From an uncultured Gemmatimonadota bacterium (lineage in GTDB: Bacteria; Gemmatimonadota; Gemmatimonadetes; Gemmatimonadales; Gemmatimonadaceae): a stretch of 64,000 nt of DNA. Position numbers and translations under genes: made by a program. The stretch is from assembly GCA_903910555.1 (NCBI GenBank), contig CAIVZZ010000006.1, positions 1 to 64,000 on the forward strand. The letters are read 5' to 3'. The notes beneath the pieces are model-generated. The model was not told the origin of the DNA and made no database searches. It was given only the letters and a program-made list of their open reading frames with translations. This document shows positions 33,690 through 45,621 of the stretch, piece after piece. Every line of letters starts with the position of its first letter. Position 1 is the first letter of the stretch.

Positions 33690-34594
33690 TGCGGTCGCGC
33701 CCGCGGCTCGCCATCACGCTGGGCGATCCCCGCGGGATTGGCGCGGAGATCGTTCGCAAGGCGCTGGGTGATGCGCGTGTGGCCGCCGCGTGCGAGACCG
33801 TGATTGTTGGGGCCGCCGGGCTCGATATTCGTCCCGACATCGCGGTGGGGTCGTGGCGGAACTCGGGTGAGTTTGCCGATGCGGGCCGCTTGGCTGGCGC
33901 TGCAATCGAGCGCGCAGTTGAGATGGCGGCTGCGGGTGAGGTAGACGGGATCGTGACCGCACCGATCGACAAAGCCGCGCTTCACGCCGGTGGCTATGAT
34001 TTCCCCGGCCACACCGAAATGCTGGCCGCGCTCACGAACTCGCGGACTGCGATGATGCTGGCGAGCGATCGCCTCCGTGTGGTGCTCGCAACCACTCACA
34101 TCGCGCTACGTGATGTTCCCGCCGCCGTGACACCCGACGCGCTCGCATGGGCCGCGCGTCTCACCCGGGACGGTTTGCGGCGCTGGTATGGGATCGCCGA
34201 GCCGCGGCTCGCGCTCTGCGCGATGAATCCGCATGCAGGAGATGGCGGACGATTTGGCGACGAAGACGAGCGGATTCTGCGGCCTGTTGCGCGGGACGAA
34301 GGACTGTCAGGGCCTTTTCCGGCGGATACAGTTTTTGTGCGGGCCATGCGCGGAGAGTTCGACGCGGTGATCGCGCCGTATCACGATGTGGGAATGACAG
34401 CGATCAAAGTGGCGAGTTTTGGGCATGCGGTGAATGTCACGCTGGGGCTGCCGTTTCCGCGGACTTCGCCGGATCATGGGACGGCGATTGATATCGCTGG
34501 GAAGGATCGGGCGGATGCTGGATCGATGATTGAGGCGATTCTTGAGTGTGCGAAATTTGCGGCACTCAAAACTACGGCGACTGGCGACTCGTAA
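33689..34594 (+). CDS. pdxA: 4-hydroxythreonine-4-phosphate dehydrogenase
   Basis: 301 residues from ATG 33689; GTG 33686 is also possible. Pyridoxal-phosphate synthesis (DXP-dependent branch). Motifs: TLGDPRGIGAE, TAPIDKAAL, GHTEML, NPHAGDGGRFGDED, PYHDVGMTAIK, GLPFPRTSPDHGTA, with the three metal-binding His. The last five residues (ATGDS) and the stop come from the palindrome 34576-34698, so the natural C-terminus was probably a little different. Confidence 0.94.
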   Translation: MRSRPRLAITLGDPRGIGAEIVRKALGDARVAAACETVIVGAAGLDIRPDIAVGSWRNSGEFADAGRLAGAAIERAVEMAAAGEVDGIVTAPIDKAALHAGGYDFPGHTEMLAALTNSRTAMMLASDRLRVVLATTHIALRDVPAAVTPDALAWAARLTRDGLRRWYGIAEPRLALCAMNPHAGDGGRFGDEDERILRPVARDEGLSGPFPADTVFVRAMRGEFDAVIAPYHDVGMTAIKVASFGHAVNVTLGLPFPRTSPDHGTAIDIAGKDRADAGSMIEAILECAKFAALKTTATGDS

Positions 34595-34698
34595 ATGGCG
34601 ATCTGGTGCATAGCGAATGGCGAGTAGCGCGCAGACGGTCTCCGCGCCACTCGCCATTCGCTATGCACCAAATTGCCGATTACGAGTCGCCAGTCGCC
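34576..34698. repeat. 123-bp palindrome supplying the ends of two converging genes
   Basis: Arms 34576-34631 and 34643-34698 (56 bp each, five mismatches) around an 11-nt loop. Each outer arm starts GGCGACTGGCGACTCGTAA when read inward. In both converging genes this is read in the same frame as A-T-G-D-S-stop. Internal heptads: TGGCGAC, AGCGAAT, GGCGAGT. May act as a two-way terminator, although T-tracts are absent. Confidence 0.97.
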
Positions 34699-38577: not shown

Positions 38578-38597
38578 CGGCTCTTGGACGGTGTACG

Positions 38598-38748
38598 ACG
38601 AGTGAACTGTTAACTACTAACTGTTGGTCGGTTAACCAAAGTCTGACAATCAGTAGGGGCCGCAGCGCCAATCTTTCGGTGCGCGGCCCCTACGAATTGG
38701 GTCACCTTGGTTAACCGACCAACAGTTAGTGGTTAACAGTTCACTCGT
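38598..38748. repeat. 151-bp nested palindrome between pilT and typA
   Basis: Outer arms 38598-38641 and 38705-38748 (44 bp, two mismatches). Inner hairpin GTAGGGGCCGC (38653-38663) with GCGGCCCCTAC (38683-38693). The outer arm contains the heptads AACTGTT-AACTACT-AACTGTT (38605-38625). No open reading frame of interest. It lies 20 bp after the pilT stop and 88 bp before typA, so it could end pilT transcription. Confidence 0.97.
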
Positions 38749-38816
38749 TGGACAGTATGCCCCAAGCCGAACTCCCGTAAATTCAGGGTCTTTTGGTCAA
38801 CATTTCGCGCACTAAT

Positions 38817-40671: not shown

Positions 40672-40797
40672 AGACGCCGCCGCAGTTAATTGAATAGTTG
40701 TCACGTGGCGGTTGTTCGTTGATAGTTGTTGTTGCGTGCGTTGTTCAGTCGTTCTTGCAGTTCATTCGTCGTTTTCTCGAATCGGAGAGCCGGGATT

Positions 40798-41040
40798 ATG
40801 CCGGGCAGTGGTGAGTCGTCGCCGTCCGCCGGACGTGACGAGTTTGGGTTCGACCTCGCGGGTGGTGACGACGAGGCCGAGGAGCTCGATGCGGACGATG
40901 AGGATCTCGATGACGATGATCTCGAAGACGAAGATGAAGACGGTCTGCTCGACGAAGACGAGCTGATCGATTTGGACGATGAGTACGACGATGCCGACCA
41001 GGACGACAAGCAGCATCCCGGGCATCGCTACGACGATTGA
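40798..41040 (+). CDS. Very acidic small protein of unknown function
   Basis: 80 residues starting at ATG 40798 with GGAGAG upstream. Roughly half of all residues are Asp or Glu (39 of 80 by hand count), concentrated from residue 24 to 73 with no basic residue in that stretch. The tail is KQHPGHRYDD. No fold or family recognised; such proteins can bind cations or basic partners. It lies between typA and tRNA-Ile. It is supported by the ribosome-binding site and an open frame, but could be spurious given the repetitive GAC/GAT/GAA codons. Confidence 0.55.
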   Translation: MPGSGESSPSAGRDEFGFDLAGGDDEAEELDADDEDLDDDDLEDEDEDGLLDEDELIDLDDEYDDADQDDKQHPGHRYDD

Positions 41041-41094
41041 CCTGTTTCGTTGACTGAGCGGCCCGGTCCCGCTTTATTTCGAGACTGATGTTTA

Positions 41095-41150
<56 letters not shown>

Positions 41151-41168
<18 letters not shown>

Positions 41169-41330
41169 TTGATCAGGAAGTCGTTGTCCTCGCGGAGCTC
41201 GGATCAACTCCTCGATGGCCCATTGATCAGGAAGTCGTTGTCCTCGCGGAGCTCGGATCAACTCCTCGATGGCCCATTGATCAGGAAGTCGTTGTCCTCG
41301 CGGAGCTCGGATCAACTCCTCGATGGCCCA
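41151..41330 (+). repeat. 54-bp tandem repeat carrying the tRNA-Ile 3' end
   Basis: Three identical 54-bp units (41151-41204, 41205-41258, 41259-41312) plus a partial unit (41313-41330). Each starts with the 18-nt tRNA 3' end (T-loop half, T-stem 3' strand, acceptor 3' strand, A), followed by a 36-nt linker. The first unit's 18 nt are the genuine tRNA end. All copies precede the terminator, so they should be in the tRNA precursor. Confidence 0.98.
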
Positions 41331-41349
41331 CTTGGGAGAGATAGGGACT

Positions 41350-41382
41350 GCCCGTTGGCGCTTCGGCGACCAACGGGCTTTT
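41350..41382 (+). terminator. Intrinsic terminator of the tRNA-Ile unit
   Basis: GCCCGTTGG (41350-41358) pairs with CCAACGGGC (41370-41378). The stem continues as CGC-TTCG-GCG with a UUCG tetraloop (41359-41368) and is followed by TTTT (41379-41382). Strong rho-independent form. It also insulates the PadR promoter downstream. Confidence 0.88.
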
Positions 41383-41487
41383 CGTTTGCGTTCGCTTCTA
41401 GCGGCGTGGTGTCCGCTATGGTGCCCGTTCATTGGTGACAATGAAACGCCTCAACTTGCGGCTGGAGTTGTCGACGTTCGGGTCCCC

Positions 41488-41525
41488 TTGCGCTTCTACA
41501 CGAGTCACATAGTATTGTGTAGAAG
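41488..41525 (+). promoter_or_regulatory. PadR promoter with embedded inverted-repeat operator
   Basis: -35 TTGCGC (41488-41493), 16-bp spacer, -10 TAGTAT (41510-41515). A perfect 9-bp inverted repeat CTTCTACAC (41493-41501) / GTGTAGAAG (41517-41525) with a 15-bp spacer encloses the -10. Position and symmetry fit autorepression by the adjacent PadR protein. The rest of 41383-41487 shows no gene. Confidence 0.68.
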
Positions 41526-41539
41526 CAACAGGGGAGAAC

Positions 41540-41872
41540 GTGACCGACAAGCCAATCGACCTGCCGCAGGGCACACTTGACTTGCTCATCCTTAAGGCCC
41601 TTTCGCTCGGACCGATGCACGGCTGGGCGGTATCCGAGCGGATCGCGCAGGTGTCGCGCGAGGAGCTGGCCATCCAGCAGGGCTCGCTCTATCCATCGCT
41701 GCATCGACTCGAGCGGCGCGGGCTGGTAAAGGCCAAGTGGGGCGTGACGGCGAACAACCGGCGCGCGAAGTACTACGAGCTTACCCGCAGCGGGCGCGCG
41801 CACCTACAAGACGAGGCGGATGCGTGGTCGCGGCTCGTTGCGGTGGTCGGGCTGATCATGAAGACGACCTGA
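41540..41872 (+). CDS. PadR-family transcriptional regulator
   Basis: 110 residues, GTG start with GGGGAG upstream. PadR winged helix from residue 8 to about 85 (LPQGTLDLLILKALSLGPMHGWAVSERI ... GSLYPSLHRLERRGLVKAKWG ... RRAKYYELTRSGRAHL), then a short dimerisation helix. Such short PadR proteins are regularly encoded directly before stand-alone ABC permeases and repress them. The gene ends 8 bp before the permease. Confidence 0.93.
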   Translation: MTDKPIDLPQGTLDLLILKALSLGPMHGWAVSERIAQVSREELAIQQGSLYPSLHRLERRGLVKAKWGVTANNRRAKYYELTRSGRAHLQDEADAWSRLVAVVGLIMKTT

Positions 41873-41880
41873 GGGCTGTC

Positions 41881-44604
41881 ATGTCGCGCGAACTGCTGAG
41901 CGATCTTCGGTACCGTCTCCGCGCGCTGTTCGGCGGCAGACAGATGGAGCGCGAACTTGACGATGAGCTTCAATTTCACCTGGATGCTCAGACCGATCGC
42001 CTCGTGCGCGAGGGCGTTACGCCAGCGGAGGCCGTCCGCCGGGCGCGCATCGCGATCGGCGGCGTCGAACACGTAAAGGAACTGAGCCGCGACGGGCGCG
42101 GCGTCCGCGTCGCGCTGGATGTCGCGCGCGACTTCGCCTTCGCGATGCGCGCGGCGCGACGGCGTCCGGGTTTCTCGCTGATCGTCGCGCTCTCGCTCGC
42201 GTTGGGAATCGGCTCAACGACGGCGGTATTCAGCCTCACATACGACGTGCTCCTCGCGCCGCTTCGCCTACCGCATCCCGAGCAGCTCGCGTCGCTTACG
42301 CGCATCGACAAGGACGAAGATGACAACTCGTTTACATGGGCTGAGTACGCCGCGTTGCGCGACACTCCTGGTGCCGGCATGTTCTCGGCAGTGCGCTCCG
42401 CCAGCGCGATTTCGATCGTCGCGGGCGAGCAGCGCGACCTGATCAACATTCACTTCGTCGACGGCTCTTACTTTCCACTGACCGGCGCGCGCGCTTCACA
42501 GGGGCGCCTTATCTCCGCGAATGACGACGCCTTCGGCGCACCGGTTGTGGTGCTATCCGCGTGGTTTGCTGACAAGCTCTTTCCCGGCGATTCGGAACGC
42601 ATCGGGAAGATCGTACTAATTCGCGGCGCGCCGTTCACGGTCATCGGTGTAACAGAGCGGCCGTTCCTGGCCCTCGAGTTCCCAGGCTGGTTCACGGCGG
42701 CAATTCCGCACGGCGCGGTATCGCTTCTCGGTGCGCTCGGTCCCGGGAGCGACAATCGCGGTGAACCTTTCGGGGTTGGCGACGACCGACTGAGTGCGCA
42801 CCGGCTGTTTCGCGTGGTCGCGCGCATTCCGGGGGACCTGCCGGCGGCGCGCGCGGCACTCGCGGCGGCCTTTCAGCGATGCTGCCGCTCCACGTCGACG
42901 GAGCGGCTCGTCGTTACGGAGATCAGCCGGGGCATTGGCGGTGGGAAGAACGACTTTCGAGTTCAGGCTCGGGGGATTCTCACGATCCTTCTTGGGGGAA
43001 TGGCTCTCGTGCTGCTCGTCGTGTGCGCCAACGTCGCCGGATTGCTGCTCGTGCGAGAGTCGGCGCGGAAGCGAGAGATCGCCGTGCGGCTCGCACTGGG
43101 CGCATCGCGCGCACGGATCATCCTGCAACTCGTGATGGAGAATGTGCCGCTCGCGATCGCAGGGGGTGTCGGCGGCGCGGCAGTCGCGATCTGGTATTCG
43201 GCAATCTTCATGCGGAACATACCGCCGGATTGGGCCACTCCCGCAGATCCGGTCCAGCTTTTCGGGATTCGCGTGGGGCCGGTGCTGGTCGGCTGCACCG
43301 CGGCGCTGACGCTGATATGCGGGATTGGGTTTTCGATTTATCCCGCGCTCCGCGCGACACGGCACGATCTTGCGCGGTCTCTTCGCCTCGACGCGCGGGC
43401 GTCCCGCACCCGCAAGCAGGGCGCGCTGGCGCGCGGAGTGGTCGCCGCGCAGGTGGCGGTCACGCTCGCGCTCGTGACCGCGGGCGGACTGTTCGCGGCC
43501 ACCATCGGAAACCTCGAGCGCCTCGATGGCGGCTTCAACTCAGGGAATCTGCTGCTCGCCGGCCTCGAGGCGCGCAGTTCCCGCTACGAGTCGACGGGCG
43601 TGGCGCCGTTGCTCGGCGCGGTCGTCGCGCGCGTCCGCAACGAGCCGGGCGTGCGCTTTGCCGCTGCCGCAACGAGCGTGCCAGTGTTCGGTGGTAACAA
43701 CTGGCGCGCCATCGCCGAGATTCCTGGCTTCGTTCCACCACCGGGAAAGCATGCCTCGGTGGCGCTTTCGGCGCTGACGCCCGGGTACTTCGACGCACTG
43801 GGCGTGAAGCTCGTCACTGGGCGCGATTTCGCGAATACTGACGATGCGGGATCGGAGCCCGTGGCGATCGTCAGCTCCGCCTTCGTGCGAAAATATCTGT
43901 CGCGCGTGACCCCGCTGGGGCAATCGGTTGCGGTTGCATCGCACGGCGATTCGTTGATCGCGGTGCGCATCGTCGGCGTCGCGCCCGACGTCGCGTCCGG
44001 TGACTTGCGCGCGCCTGCGGCGCCGCTCGTGTACGTGCCATTTTCACAGACTACGGGATCGTGGCACGGCGCCATGCTTGCAATCCGTACGGCCGGAAAC
44101 CCGAATGACGAAATCCGCTCGACGTTGCGGGCGATTCAGGCCTCGGCGCCGGGATTGAACGTGCGCAATGTGCGGGATATGCAGTCGCTGCGAGATCAGG
44201 CGACGACCGTCGAGCGTCTCGCCGCGCGTCTCGCGACGTTCGTGAGTGCCATGGCGCTGCTGCTTTCGGCGGTAGGGCTCTACGGCGTGGTCGCGTACAG
44301 CGTTTCACAACGAACAAGCGAGATTGGCATTCGCCTGGCGCTCGGTGCGCGCCGGGGGTCGGTGCTTTGGCTCGTCGCACGCGAGGCCATCGTCATCGTC
44401 GCCGCGGGCGTGGTGGTGGGGATTCCGCTGTCGTACGCAACGGGCGGCGCGCTTCGATCGCAACTGTTCGGGATTGGAGTGCACAACCCGGTGGCGCTCA
44501 CAGTGGCCGTTGCGTTGTTGGCGGGGGTGGGGTTGGCGGCAAGCGTAATTCCCGCGAGTCGCGCGACGCAGATTGATCCGAGGGCGGCGCTGAACGCAGA
44601 TTGA
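41881..44604 (+). CDS. ADOP-type ABC transporter permease (MacB/FtsX fold)
   Basis: 907 residues from ATG 41881; a longer open frame upstream overlaps padR in another frame. The ADOP N-terminus (LLSDLRYRLRALFGGRQMERELDDELQFHLD, about 4-35) precedes a TM, a MacB-type periplasmic domain, an FtsX core of three TMs (about 360-500), a second periplasmic domain, and a final FtsX core (about 785-900) ending SRATQIDPRAALNAD. No ATPase is encoded nearby, as usual for this class in Gemmatimonadota and Acidobacteriota. Substrate unknown; PadR control suggests a toxic small molecule or peptide. Confidence 0.9.
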   Translation: MSRELLSDLRYRLRALFGGRQMERELDDELQFHLDAQTDRLVREGVTPAEAVRRARIAIGGVEHVKELSRDGRGVRVALDVARDFAFAMRAARRRPGFSLIVALSLALGIGSTTAVFSLTYDVLLAPLRLPHPEQLASLTRIDKDEDDNSFTWAEYAALRDTPGAGMFSAVRSASAISIVAGEQRDLINIHFVDGSYFPLTGARASQGRLISANDDAFGAPVVVLSAWFADKLFPGDSERIGKIVLIRGAPFTVIGVTERPFLALEFPGWFTAAIPHGAVSLLGALGPGSDNRGEPFGVGDDRLSAHRLFRVVARIPGDLPAARAALAAAFQRCCRSTSTERLVVTEISRGIGGGKNDFRVQARGILTILLGGMALVLLVVCANVAGLLLVRESARKREIAVRLALGASRARIILQLVMENVPLAIAGGVGGAAVAIWYSAIFMRNIPPDWATPADPVQLFGIRVGPVLVGCTAALTLICGIGFSIYPALRATRHDLARSLRLDARASRTRKQGALARGVVAAQVAVTLALVTAGGLFAATIGNLERLDGGFNSGNLLLAGLEARSSRYESTGVAPLLGAVVARVRNEPGVRFAAAATSVPVFGGNNWRAIAEIPGFVPPPGKHASVALSALTPGYFDALGVKLVTGRDFANTDDAGSEPVAIVSSAFVRKYLSRVTPLGQSVAVASHGDSLIAVRIVGVAPDVASGDLRAPAAPLVYVPFSQTTGSWHGAMLAIRTAGNPNDEIRSTLRAIQASAPGLNVRNVRDMQSLRDQATTVERLAARLATFVSAMALLLSAVGLYGVVAYSVSQRTSEIGIRLALGARRGSVLWLVAREAIVIVAAGVVVGIPLSYATGGALRSQLFGIGVHNPVALTVAVALLAGVGLAASVIPASRATQIDPRAALNAD

Positions 44605-44773
44605 AGAACGGGACGCCTGGCGTGCCCTGCGCCGCGCAATGGTGTCCATCCGAGTGTGTGAAATGCACGTCGACTTGAACATTTGCGCACAATTCGAACG
44701 CGAAACTGAGCAGGATGTTCGAGACGCGCGGACAAAGTGAACGTTCGCGCACAATTCATGCGCAGTTCAGGGG
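44605..44773. other. Gap without gene, short imperfect direct repeat
   Basis: No coding potential seen. GAAC-N2-TT/C-N-GCGCACAATTC occurs twice (44677-44695 and 44739-44757) with two differences. This could be a trace of element ends. The gap runs up to the tRNA-Ile 3' fragment. Confidence 0.4.
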
Positions 44774-44817
44774 GCCTGATAAGCGTGAGGTCCGAGGTTC
44801 AACTCCTCGATGGCCCA
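44774..44817 (+). pseudogene. tRNA-Ile 3' half (anticodon loop to discriminator)
   Basis: 44 nt identical to 41125-41168 of the complete tRNA-Ile: the end of the anticodon stem, loop, variable region, T-arm and acceptor 3' strand. The 5' half is missing, so it cannot make a tRNA. Position relative to the full gene is that expected for an attR-type remnant. Confidence 0.95.
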
Positions 44818-44874
44818 CTGATTAAGGAAGTCGTTGTCCTCCTCGGGGAGTCGGATCAACTCCTCAATGGCCCA
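44800..44874 (+). repeat. Diverged copy of the tRNA-end repeat
   Basis: One 57-bp unit (44800-44856) and an 18-bp partial (44857-44874, one change) related to the 54-bp repeats at 41151. The linker differs by a few bases and a 3-bp gain. It shows that the repeat unit exists on both sides of the PadR/permease cassette. Confidence 0.9.
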
Positions 44875-44898
44875 CTGAAAACGGAAGTCGCCTTATCG

Positions 44899-44930
44899 AG
44901 CGCCGCCCAGACTTAGGTCTCGGCGGCGCT
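44899..44930 (+). terminator. Hairpin after the tRNA fragment
   Basis: AGCGCCGCC (44899-44907) / GGCGGCGCT (44922-44930) with an inner AGAC/GTCT pairing. It is followed by TTGGTTATCT, so the T-tract is weak. It occupies the place that 41350-41382 has after the intact tRNA and could be the original tRNA terminator. Confidence 0.6.
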
Positions 44931-45032
44931 TTGGTTATCTCTGCGTGAATTCAGTGACGCATACGGGAACGGAGCATCTTAGGTTCGCGTTGCCCGGATG
45001 AGACCCGAACGCCCTTCCCGGCACCACTTGCA

Positions 45033-45055
45033 AATCTGCATATATCGTGCAGATT
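45033..45055. promoter_or_regulatory. VapBC operator-like inverted repeat
   Basis: Perfect 8-bp arms AATCTGCA (45033-45040) and TGCAGATT (45048-45055) with TATATCG between, ending next to the vapB start. Typical position for autoregulation by the antitoxin-toxin complex. The region 44931-45032 shows no gene. Confidence 0.65.
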
Positions 45056-45062
45056 GATGCAG

Positions 45063-45287
45063 ATGAGAACCACACTCAATCTGGACGACGACCTCATGAA
45101 TCGCGCAATTCATCTCTCCGGCATCGCGGAGAAAACCGCAGTAATCCACGCCGGCCTCGAGGCGCTCATCGCGCGTGAATCCGCACGCCGGCTTGCCCGG
45201 CTCGGCGCCTCCATGCCCGATCTCGAGCTCCCGCCGCGCCGGCGCCCTGAGGCTCCCGCCCCGCGGAAGTCACGTGGTTCTCGCTGA
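45063..45287 (+). CDS. vapB: Type II antitoxin, VapB family
   Basis: 74 residues from ATG 45063 (MRTTLNLDDDLMNRAIHLSG); ATG 45057 and TTG 45054 are also in frame. The N-terminal ribbon-helix-helix pattern (TTLNLDDDL ... AVIHAGLEALIARES) binds the operator just upstream. The Pro/Arg-rich C-terminus should wrap the toxin. Its stop lies inside the toxin frame (14-bp overlap), the usual coupling in vapBC pairs. Confidence 0.88.
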   Translation: MRTTLNLDDDLMNRAIHLSGIAEKTAVIHAGLEALIARESARRLARLGASMPDLELPPRRRPEAPAPRKSRGSR

Positions 45288-45621
45288 CACATCGGTGTGG
45301 GTGCATCACTTTCGGCGCGGCAGCGACCGGCTCGGCGTGCTGCTCGAGTCCGGAATGGTGGCGATCCATCCATTCGTACTCGGCGAGCTCGCGTGCGGGA
45401 CGCTCGCGCATCGCGGTGAGACGCTGAACAGCCTCCGCGCTCTTCCGCATGTTGCCGCGGCGGATGATGACGAGGTGATGCGCTTGATCGAGACGTCGCG
45501 ACTCTGGGGGACCGGTCTCGGTTGGATCGACGTACACTTGCTCGCGGCCGCGAAGCTTGCTGATGTGAAGTTGTGGACGCTCGACACGGCGCTCGCGCGC
45601 GCGGCCGGGCATACGTCCTGA
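45274..45621 (+). CDS. vapC: PIN-domain toxin, VapC family
   Basis: 115 residues from GTG 45274 with GGAA upstream. PIN RNase with acidic site residues in VVLADTSVWVHHF (Asp about 5), LGELACG (Glu), GWIDVHLLAAA (Asp) and WTLDTALARAAG (Asp). Cleaves tRNA or rRNA when the antitoxin is lost. The gene lies 344 bp after the tRNA-Ile hairpin. Confidence 0.9.
   Translation: MVLADTSVWVHHFRRGSDRLGVLLESGMVAIHPFVLGELACGTLAHRGETLNSLRALPHVAAADDDEVMRLIETSRLWGTGLGWIDVHLLAAAKLADVKLWTLDTALARAAGHTS

Follow-up and report, generated by a model that had tools for sequence, protein, structure and literature searches.

Behind a tRNA-Ile gene of an uncultured bacterium of the Gemmatimonadaceae (Gemmatimonadota; assembly GCA_903910555.1, contig CAIVZZ010000006.1), the 3' end of the tRNA is repeated in tandem ahead of a terminator-like hairpin. 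What these repeats are, and how they came to stand there, is the question raised by the locus. The window, i.e. the whole stretch of 64,000 nucleotides that was analysed, contains at this place the following features:

41095-41168, + strand: tRNA-Ile(GAU), no CCA encoded (ARAGORN; Rfam RF00005, 70.7 bits)
41169-41222, + strand: unit 1, a 34-nt spacer followed by a T-loop-to-3'-end copy of tRNA-Ile (TRF, 54 bp, 100%)
41223-41276, + strand: unit 2, same sequence as unit 1 (TRF; sequence repeats)
41277-41330, + strand: unit 3, same sequence as unit 1, its end at the canonical distance from the arm sites of an adjoining island (TRF; arm-site scan)
41350-41382, + strand: GC-rich terminator-like hairpin with a short T-run, 3' of the array (sequence; hairpin predicted by RNAfold)

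The three perfect 54-bp units directly abut the 3' end of tRNA-Ile, without a gap and in phase with the tRNA (41169-41330). TRF reports a 54-bp period with 3.4 copies at 41150-41330 (100% matches, score 362). The layout given in the original prediction, three identical units and then a terminator behind tRNA-Ile, is indeed present, though the hairpin, which RNAfold forms, is absent from the listing of a consensus terminator scan. The tRNA part of each unit is exactly tRNA-Ile 56-74, beginning in the T-loop and ending with the discriminator base; the base preceding it is A in the units and T in tRNA-Ile. The acceptor 3' strand is present in four copies including that of tRNA-Ile itself, which agrees with the proposed four alternative 3' partners. 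The 5' strand of the T-stem is absent from the units, therefore a unit cannot build a normal T-arm of its own.

The gene is the sole tRNA-Ile among the 46 tRNAs detected by ARAGORN in stretches taken from this genome. When the 46 tRNAs were scanned, the full 18-nt tRNA end was found to recur (18/18) within 600 nt downstream for tRNA-Ile only, which rules out chance for this repeat. The second best was a tRNA-Met, with 17/18 of the end recurring in a similar single unit, and the other 44 tRNAs reached at most 16/18, their three best matches sitting within neighbouring tRNAs. As the genome is a draft of 32 contigs, the exact copy number of the units is subject to the assembly. Elsewhere in the window, an 11-bp tandem repeat (CTCCCACTCAA) is present in 17 copies at 209-394, and two long inverted repeats lie at 34576-34698 and 38592-38754, with arms of 61 nt (90% complementary, 1 nt between) and 72 nt (86%).

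The location of the array between the tRNA and the terminator-like hairpin would suit a functional trailer RNA, in which the units serve as RNA decoys or as a source of tRNA 3' fragments, similarly to the RtT RNA of E. coli tyrT (RtT RNA is described in PMC4986893). A hairpin common to the units and a global minimum-energy fold of the precursor that is devoid of the cloverleaf are in line with this proposal. According to the partition function, P(acceptor) is 0.97 for the tRNA alone and 0.95 for the tRNA with a unit-free trailer, the cloverleaf being the main fold, and it drops to 0.08 with three units; these numbers are thermodynamic and ignore co-transcriptional folding, modification and tertiary contacts. 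However, misfolding as strong as that of the three units was seen in 28 of 200 shuffled arrays, and the locus of a related genome without any unit (G010) has a P(acceptor) of 0.03. The decoy pairing that had been suggested thus gains no special support from folding. An Rfam scan of 40700-45300 gave no RtT match at E<=1, only the tRNA reaching the cut-off. Open reading frames of 100 and 111 codons cross the array, yet a coding repeat was rejected, as the unit lengths of relatives break the frame; with lengths of 54, 55, 57, 49 and 67 across loci, the 100-codon frame is not conserved. We regard a functional trailer RNA as highly improbable.

The array stands at the tRNA side of a small island, the far end of which is a tRNA-Ile fragment with a diverged unit, 3.6 kb to the right of the array:

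41407-41430, + strand: paired arm-type sites TGGTGTCC / TGGTGCCC, 12 bp apart, also found in integrase-bearing relatives (motif scans)
41540-41872, + strand: PadR-family regulator, island cargo (PF03551, E 1.9e-20)
41881-44604, + strand: MacB_PCD/FtsX permease, island cargo, presumably ADOP-like (PF12704, E 2.2e-34; PF02687, E 1.1e-29)
44626-44773, + strand: right arm of the island, with TGGTGTCCATCC at 44640, resembling the right arms of islands in the related genomes G029, G006 and G008 (blastn)
44774-44817, + strand: right att core, tRNA-Ile positions 31-74 (44/44 identical)
44818-44874, + strand: diverged 57-bp unit that follows the right core and is regarded as the native trailer in displaced position (84% to the left unit, 86% to the unit of G012)
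44900-44929, + strand: predicted terminator-like hairpin in the native trailer on the right-hand side (sequence only)

The diverged unit was found at the right-hand copy, where the original prediction had placed it. The arm motif TGGTGTCC occurs twice past the tRNA-side junction (once as TGGTGCCC) and a third time close to the island's right end. Three of the four matches to TGGTGYCCRYTC with at most one mismatch in the 64 kb fall at these arm places; once two mismatches are allowed, the motif occurs no more often than chance would predict. The right arm shares up to 73% identity over 139 nt (E 1e-15, blastn) with the right arms of relatives, and the 140 nt ahead of the right tRNA fragment align with the same place in G029, G006 and G008. 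There is no integrase among the ORFs and Pfam matches of the island, no PF00589 match on the whole contig, and no relative of the tRNA-Ile-side integrase of related genomes at E<=1e-20 in the genome of the window. On the basis of the matching att core and arms and the missing integrase, we read the island as an integrase-less member of a tRNA-Ile island family: as expected of a cis-mobilizable element (CIME), it has flanking att repeats as in integrase-bearing relatives, shares their arms and has no integrase of its own. To the right of the island, at 45050-45621, lies a short gene pair that is VapB/VapC-like by eye.

A query made of the tRNA and the array has a match of any kind in 54 of 61 related genomes. 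Besides tRNA-Ile genes, these genomes contain many 3' halves that start at about 29-33 and end at 74, often serially beside the gene, and the island ends repeat tRNA-Ile positions ~31-74. A relative of the integrase is present at E<=1e-20 in 14 of the 61 genomes. Of 23 integrase matches, eight are located at 36-721 bp from tRNA-Ile or one of its fragments, and all eight point towards it; five of these (one partial) were compared and are mutually 35-79% identical, forming one family. This shows that tRNA-Ile is a serial integration site for one tyrosine integrase family in the Gemmatimonadales, the order of the source bacterium. A virus origin was also considered, and one IMG/VR contig carries the 43-nt core. 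In a genome of the same genus (L004; G015:C7, from ~164867) a CRISPR-like array (repeat GTTCTCCCCACACGCGTGGGGATGGTCCG) starts soon after tRNA-Ile, and an integrase-bearing tRNA-Ile island of G041 (L034; G041:C8:1403500-1423400) contains genes that are defence-like by eye (a Vsr-like endonuclease, methylases and an ATPase).

Units as such are far from general. An exact pattern (two tRNA ends, limited gap) detected them in at least 4 of 179 genomes of the family, a lower bound because the pattern search was exact. When 395 genomes sampled across the phylum were searched, the matches outside the family were whole tRNA-Met genes, bar one short match in G225 that was taken as chance. A fixed repeat number in relatives would have counted against the original prediction, but unit copy number differs among genomes, with three plus one in the genome of the window and a single unit in each of G012, of the same genus, and G125 and G029, which belong to two other genera. 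Ten same-genus loci have a readable trailer, and one of them (G012) carries a unit, the other nine having none. In G125 the unit is present with no second att fragment in ~17 kb of downstream sequence.

The common form of the unit is GTTG(T/C)CC, a loop of 3 to 23 nt and GG(A/G)TCAACTCC, an inverted repeat the right arm of which is the T-loop. Three genera have retained the spacer motif around GTCGTTG(T/C)CC. The middle pairs of the inverted repeat co-vary (TCC/GGA in the window and G029, CCC/GGG in G012 and G125), which is weak evidence for structure, since only one or two independent changes are involved. In the tRNA-Met unit (G000:C27, in the genome of the window) the repeated end lies ~50 nt downstream, its junction is CGGATCGAGTCC versus GGTTCGAGTCC in the tRNA, and CTCGTCC stands on the opposite side. 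The T-to-A change at the junction and the arm design (CTCG..CGAG in the tRNA-Met unit) are common to the tRNA-Ile and tRNA-Met units; the tRNA-Met spacer shows no significant likeness to the five tRNA-Ile spacers (110 to 499 of 1000 shuffles). These comparisons show the unit to be a T-loop-to-3'-end copy with a trailer-like spacer, sporadic in related genera and found once on tRNA-Met.

A few other candidates were dismissed. A junction match in G171 was dropped because its two ends disagree; a scan of the loci with GCTC(T/G)CC-N1-3-CGG for a REP-like element gave only three matches judged relevant (beside tRNA fragments), the rest being coding-like by eye; and an integron attC does not fit by its box order, judged by eye against the consensus. 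About 5.5 kb downstream of tRNA-Met, on the minus strand of G000:C27 at ~8345 (L169), there is a long palindrome. Its right arm is identical to the end of tRNA-Met, starting at the T-loop, and it resembles a terminator made from the tRNA T-arm and acceptor.

We propose, as the probable explanation, that the repeats are neutral duplicated tRNA-Ile 3' ends, that is, amplified duplication scars at the attL junction, on the tRNA side, of a small island without integrase. The array looks like a by-product of insertions and duplications rather than a new RNA device. An initial duplication of the tRNA 3' end and trailer, either via replication slippage or as a recombination scar at the T-loop, would have given rise to a single unit, and slippage between identical units would subsequently have raised the number to three in this genome; the array would be part of the tRNA transcript, which would reach the hairpin at 41350, and would be removed in 3' maturation. 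Since the three left units are identical throughout, their amplification is likely to be recent. Tandem origin was scored by the resemblance of the sequence after a unit to the unit's own spacer, relative to 1000 shuffles. The score was reached by 6/1000 shuffles each for G012 and tRNA-Met, was marginal at the right-hand copy (48/1000), and failed in three of the six units (left array 256, G125 987 and G029 940 of 1000). Tandem duplication is therefore supported for some units and not for others. The proposal that the repeats are scars of att-site recombination agrees with the setting, a serial attachment tRNA and an integrase-less island flanked by att repeats. The att repeat itself, though, is the 44-nt fragment (31-74), and the 54-bp units are a further feature, amplified T-loop-to-3'-end duplicates. 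The conserved spacer motif, the paired changes and the CTCG..CGAG of tRNA-Met could reflect selection or a specific recombination site, which would speak against a neutral scar.

The breakpoint recurs at tRNA position 54-56 in all units. This would be accounted for if the units were half-site scars of a second, T-loop-specific element, nearly all of which was deleted, leaving 34-44 bp and the tRNA 3' end. Fragments on C136 and C65 of G012 stop at 55 and are followed by CGGGCT, one fragment of G155 begins at ~54, a tRNA-Ile fragment of G010 (G010:C69:118-200, L108) has a hairpin-rich insertion of ~43 nt in the T-loop, and the CGG(A/G)TC junction is common to tRNA-Ile and tRNA-Met. Insertion in the T-loop has been described, for islands in ssrA of Dehalococcoides (PMC3146451). 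However, no element with a complete T-loop junction pair and an integrase was found, and a fixed overlap does not fit, because the loop of the units ranges from 2 to 23 nt. We consider such an origin improbable.

The spacing of the arm sites bears on a further possibility. In islands without units the arm pair lies at +79/+92 (G029, G155), +75/+87 (G041) and +76/+89 (G053) from the tRNA 3' end, and at one inner att fragment of G041 it lies 74 and 87 bp past the fragment. In the window the pair is at +79/+91 from the end of the last unit (+241 from the tRNA), and in G012 at +81/+92 from its single unit (+136 from the tRNA), the G012 pair being a divergent GTGAAC motif that was picked by eye before measuring. 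In both loci having units and an island, the canonical distance is thus counted from the last unit, not from the tRNA. Among the scanned loci, one further G041 fragment, G149, G016, G015, G014, G004, G001, G125, G010 and G153 have no arm site, and there is no arm pair in G152, G009 and G006 (one site) or in G127 (two sites far apart).

This spacing is the strongest hint that a spare end may stand in for the tRNA end where the island is joined, albeit in two loci only; as a pattern read from sequence, it would be compatible with an island joining at the unit and also with units added later. If islands joined at the last duplicated 3' end, insertion and exit would leave the sole tRNA-Ile gene untouched. 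On the other hand, the G012 pair is divergent, the cognate integrase was not found in the genome of the window, and att identity starts in the anticodon loop. The usual crossover point of such integrases is the anticodon loop, and it is missing from the units because they lack that loop. We deem spare attachment ends unlikely. An extended version, in which the duplicated ends are sacrificial and steer islands off the sole tRNA-Ile, the last spare end sets the arm sites, the hairpin of spacer and T-loop marks or insulates each end, and the arrangement has arisen on more than one tRNA, is decidedly unlikely in our estimation.

The closest precedent is the tyrT/tyrV array of E. coli, which also has tandem units directly behind the tRNA, each ending in an exact T-loop-to-3'-end copy. 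In tyrV of E. coli K-12, the 19 nt at the 3' end of the tRNA recur at +160, +338 and +516 (checked here), i.e. three times with a 178-bp spacing, compared to the 54-bp unit of the window. We take these 178-bp repeats to be the "3.14 repeats" linked with RtT/RttR RNA and tpr. Unlike tyrT/tyrV, the tRNA-Ile of the window has no encoded CCA, no conserved ORF and no Rfam RtT match, and it is the attachment gene of an island. In this last respect the locus resembles CIMEs and tRNA/tmRNA islands that grow by tandem accretion, such as the ssrA islands of Dehalococcoides, for which PMC3146451 describes tandem islands and integrase-less "cis-mobilizable" members: the att repeats are 3' ends of an RNA gene, an integrase is lacking, and integrase-bearing relatives occur in tandem. 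The integrases are tyrosine enzymes here and serine enzymes there, and the window differs in its extra short units between gene and island and in its very small cargo. The listings of a literature search contained no other case of tRNA-end arrays.

We favour neutral duplicated tRNA-Ile 3' ends, but the units might still serve as spare attachment ends, given that the T-loop junction recurs and that the arm sites keep their canonical distance from the last unit. The array behind tRNA-Ile is a second, independent example, in the distant phylum Gemmatimonadota, of repeats such as those long known downstream of tRNA-Tyr in E. coli. Its tie to an island attachment site makes the origin testable, be it att recombination, slippage or spare landing ends. 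The analysis further reveals a family of tRNA-Ile islands in the Gemmatimonadales, several being small and integrase-less.
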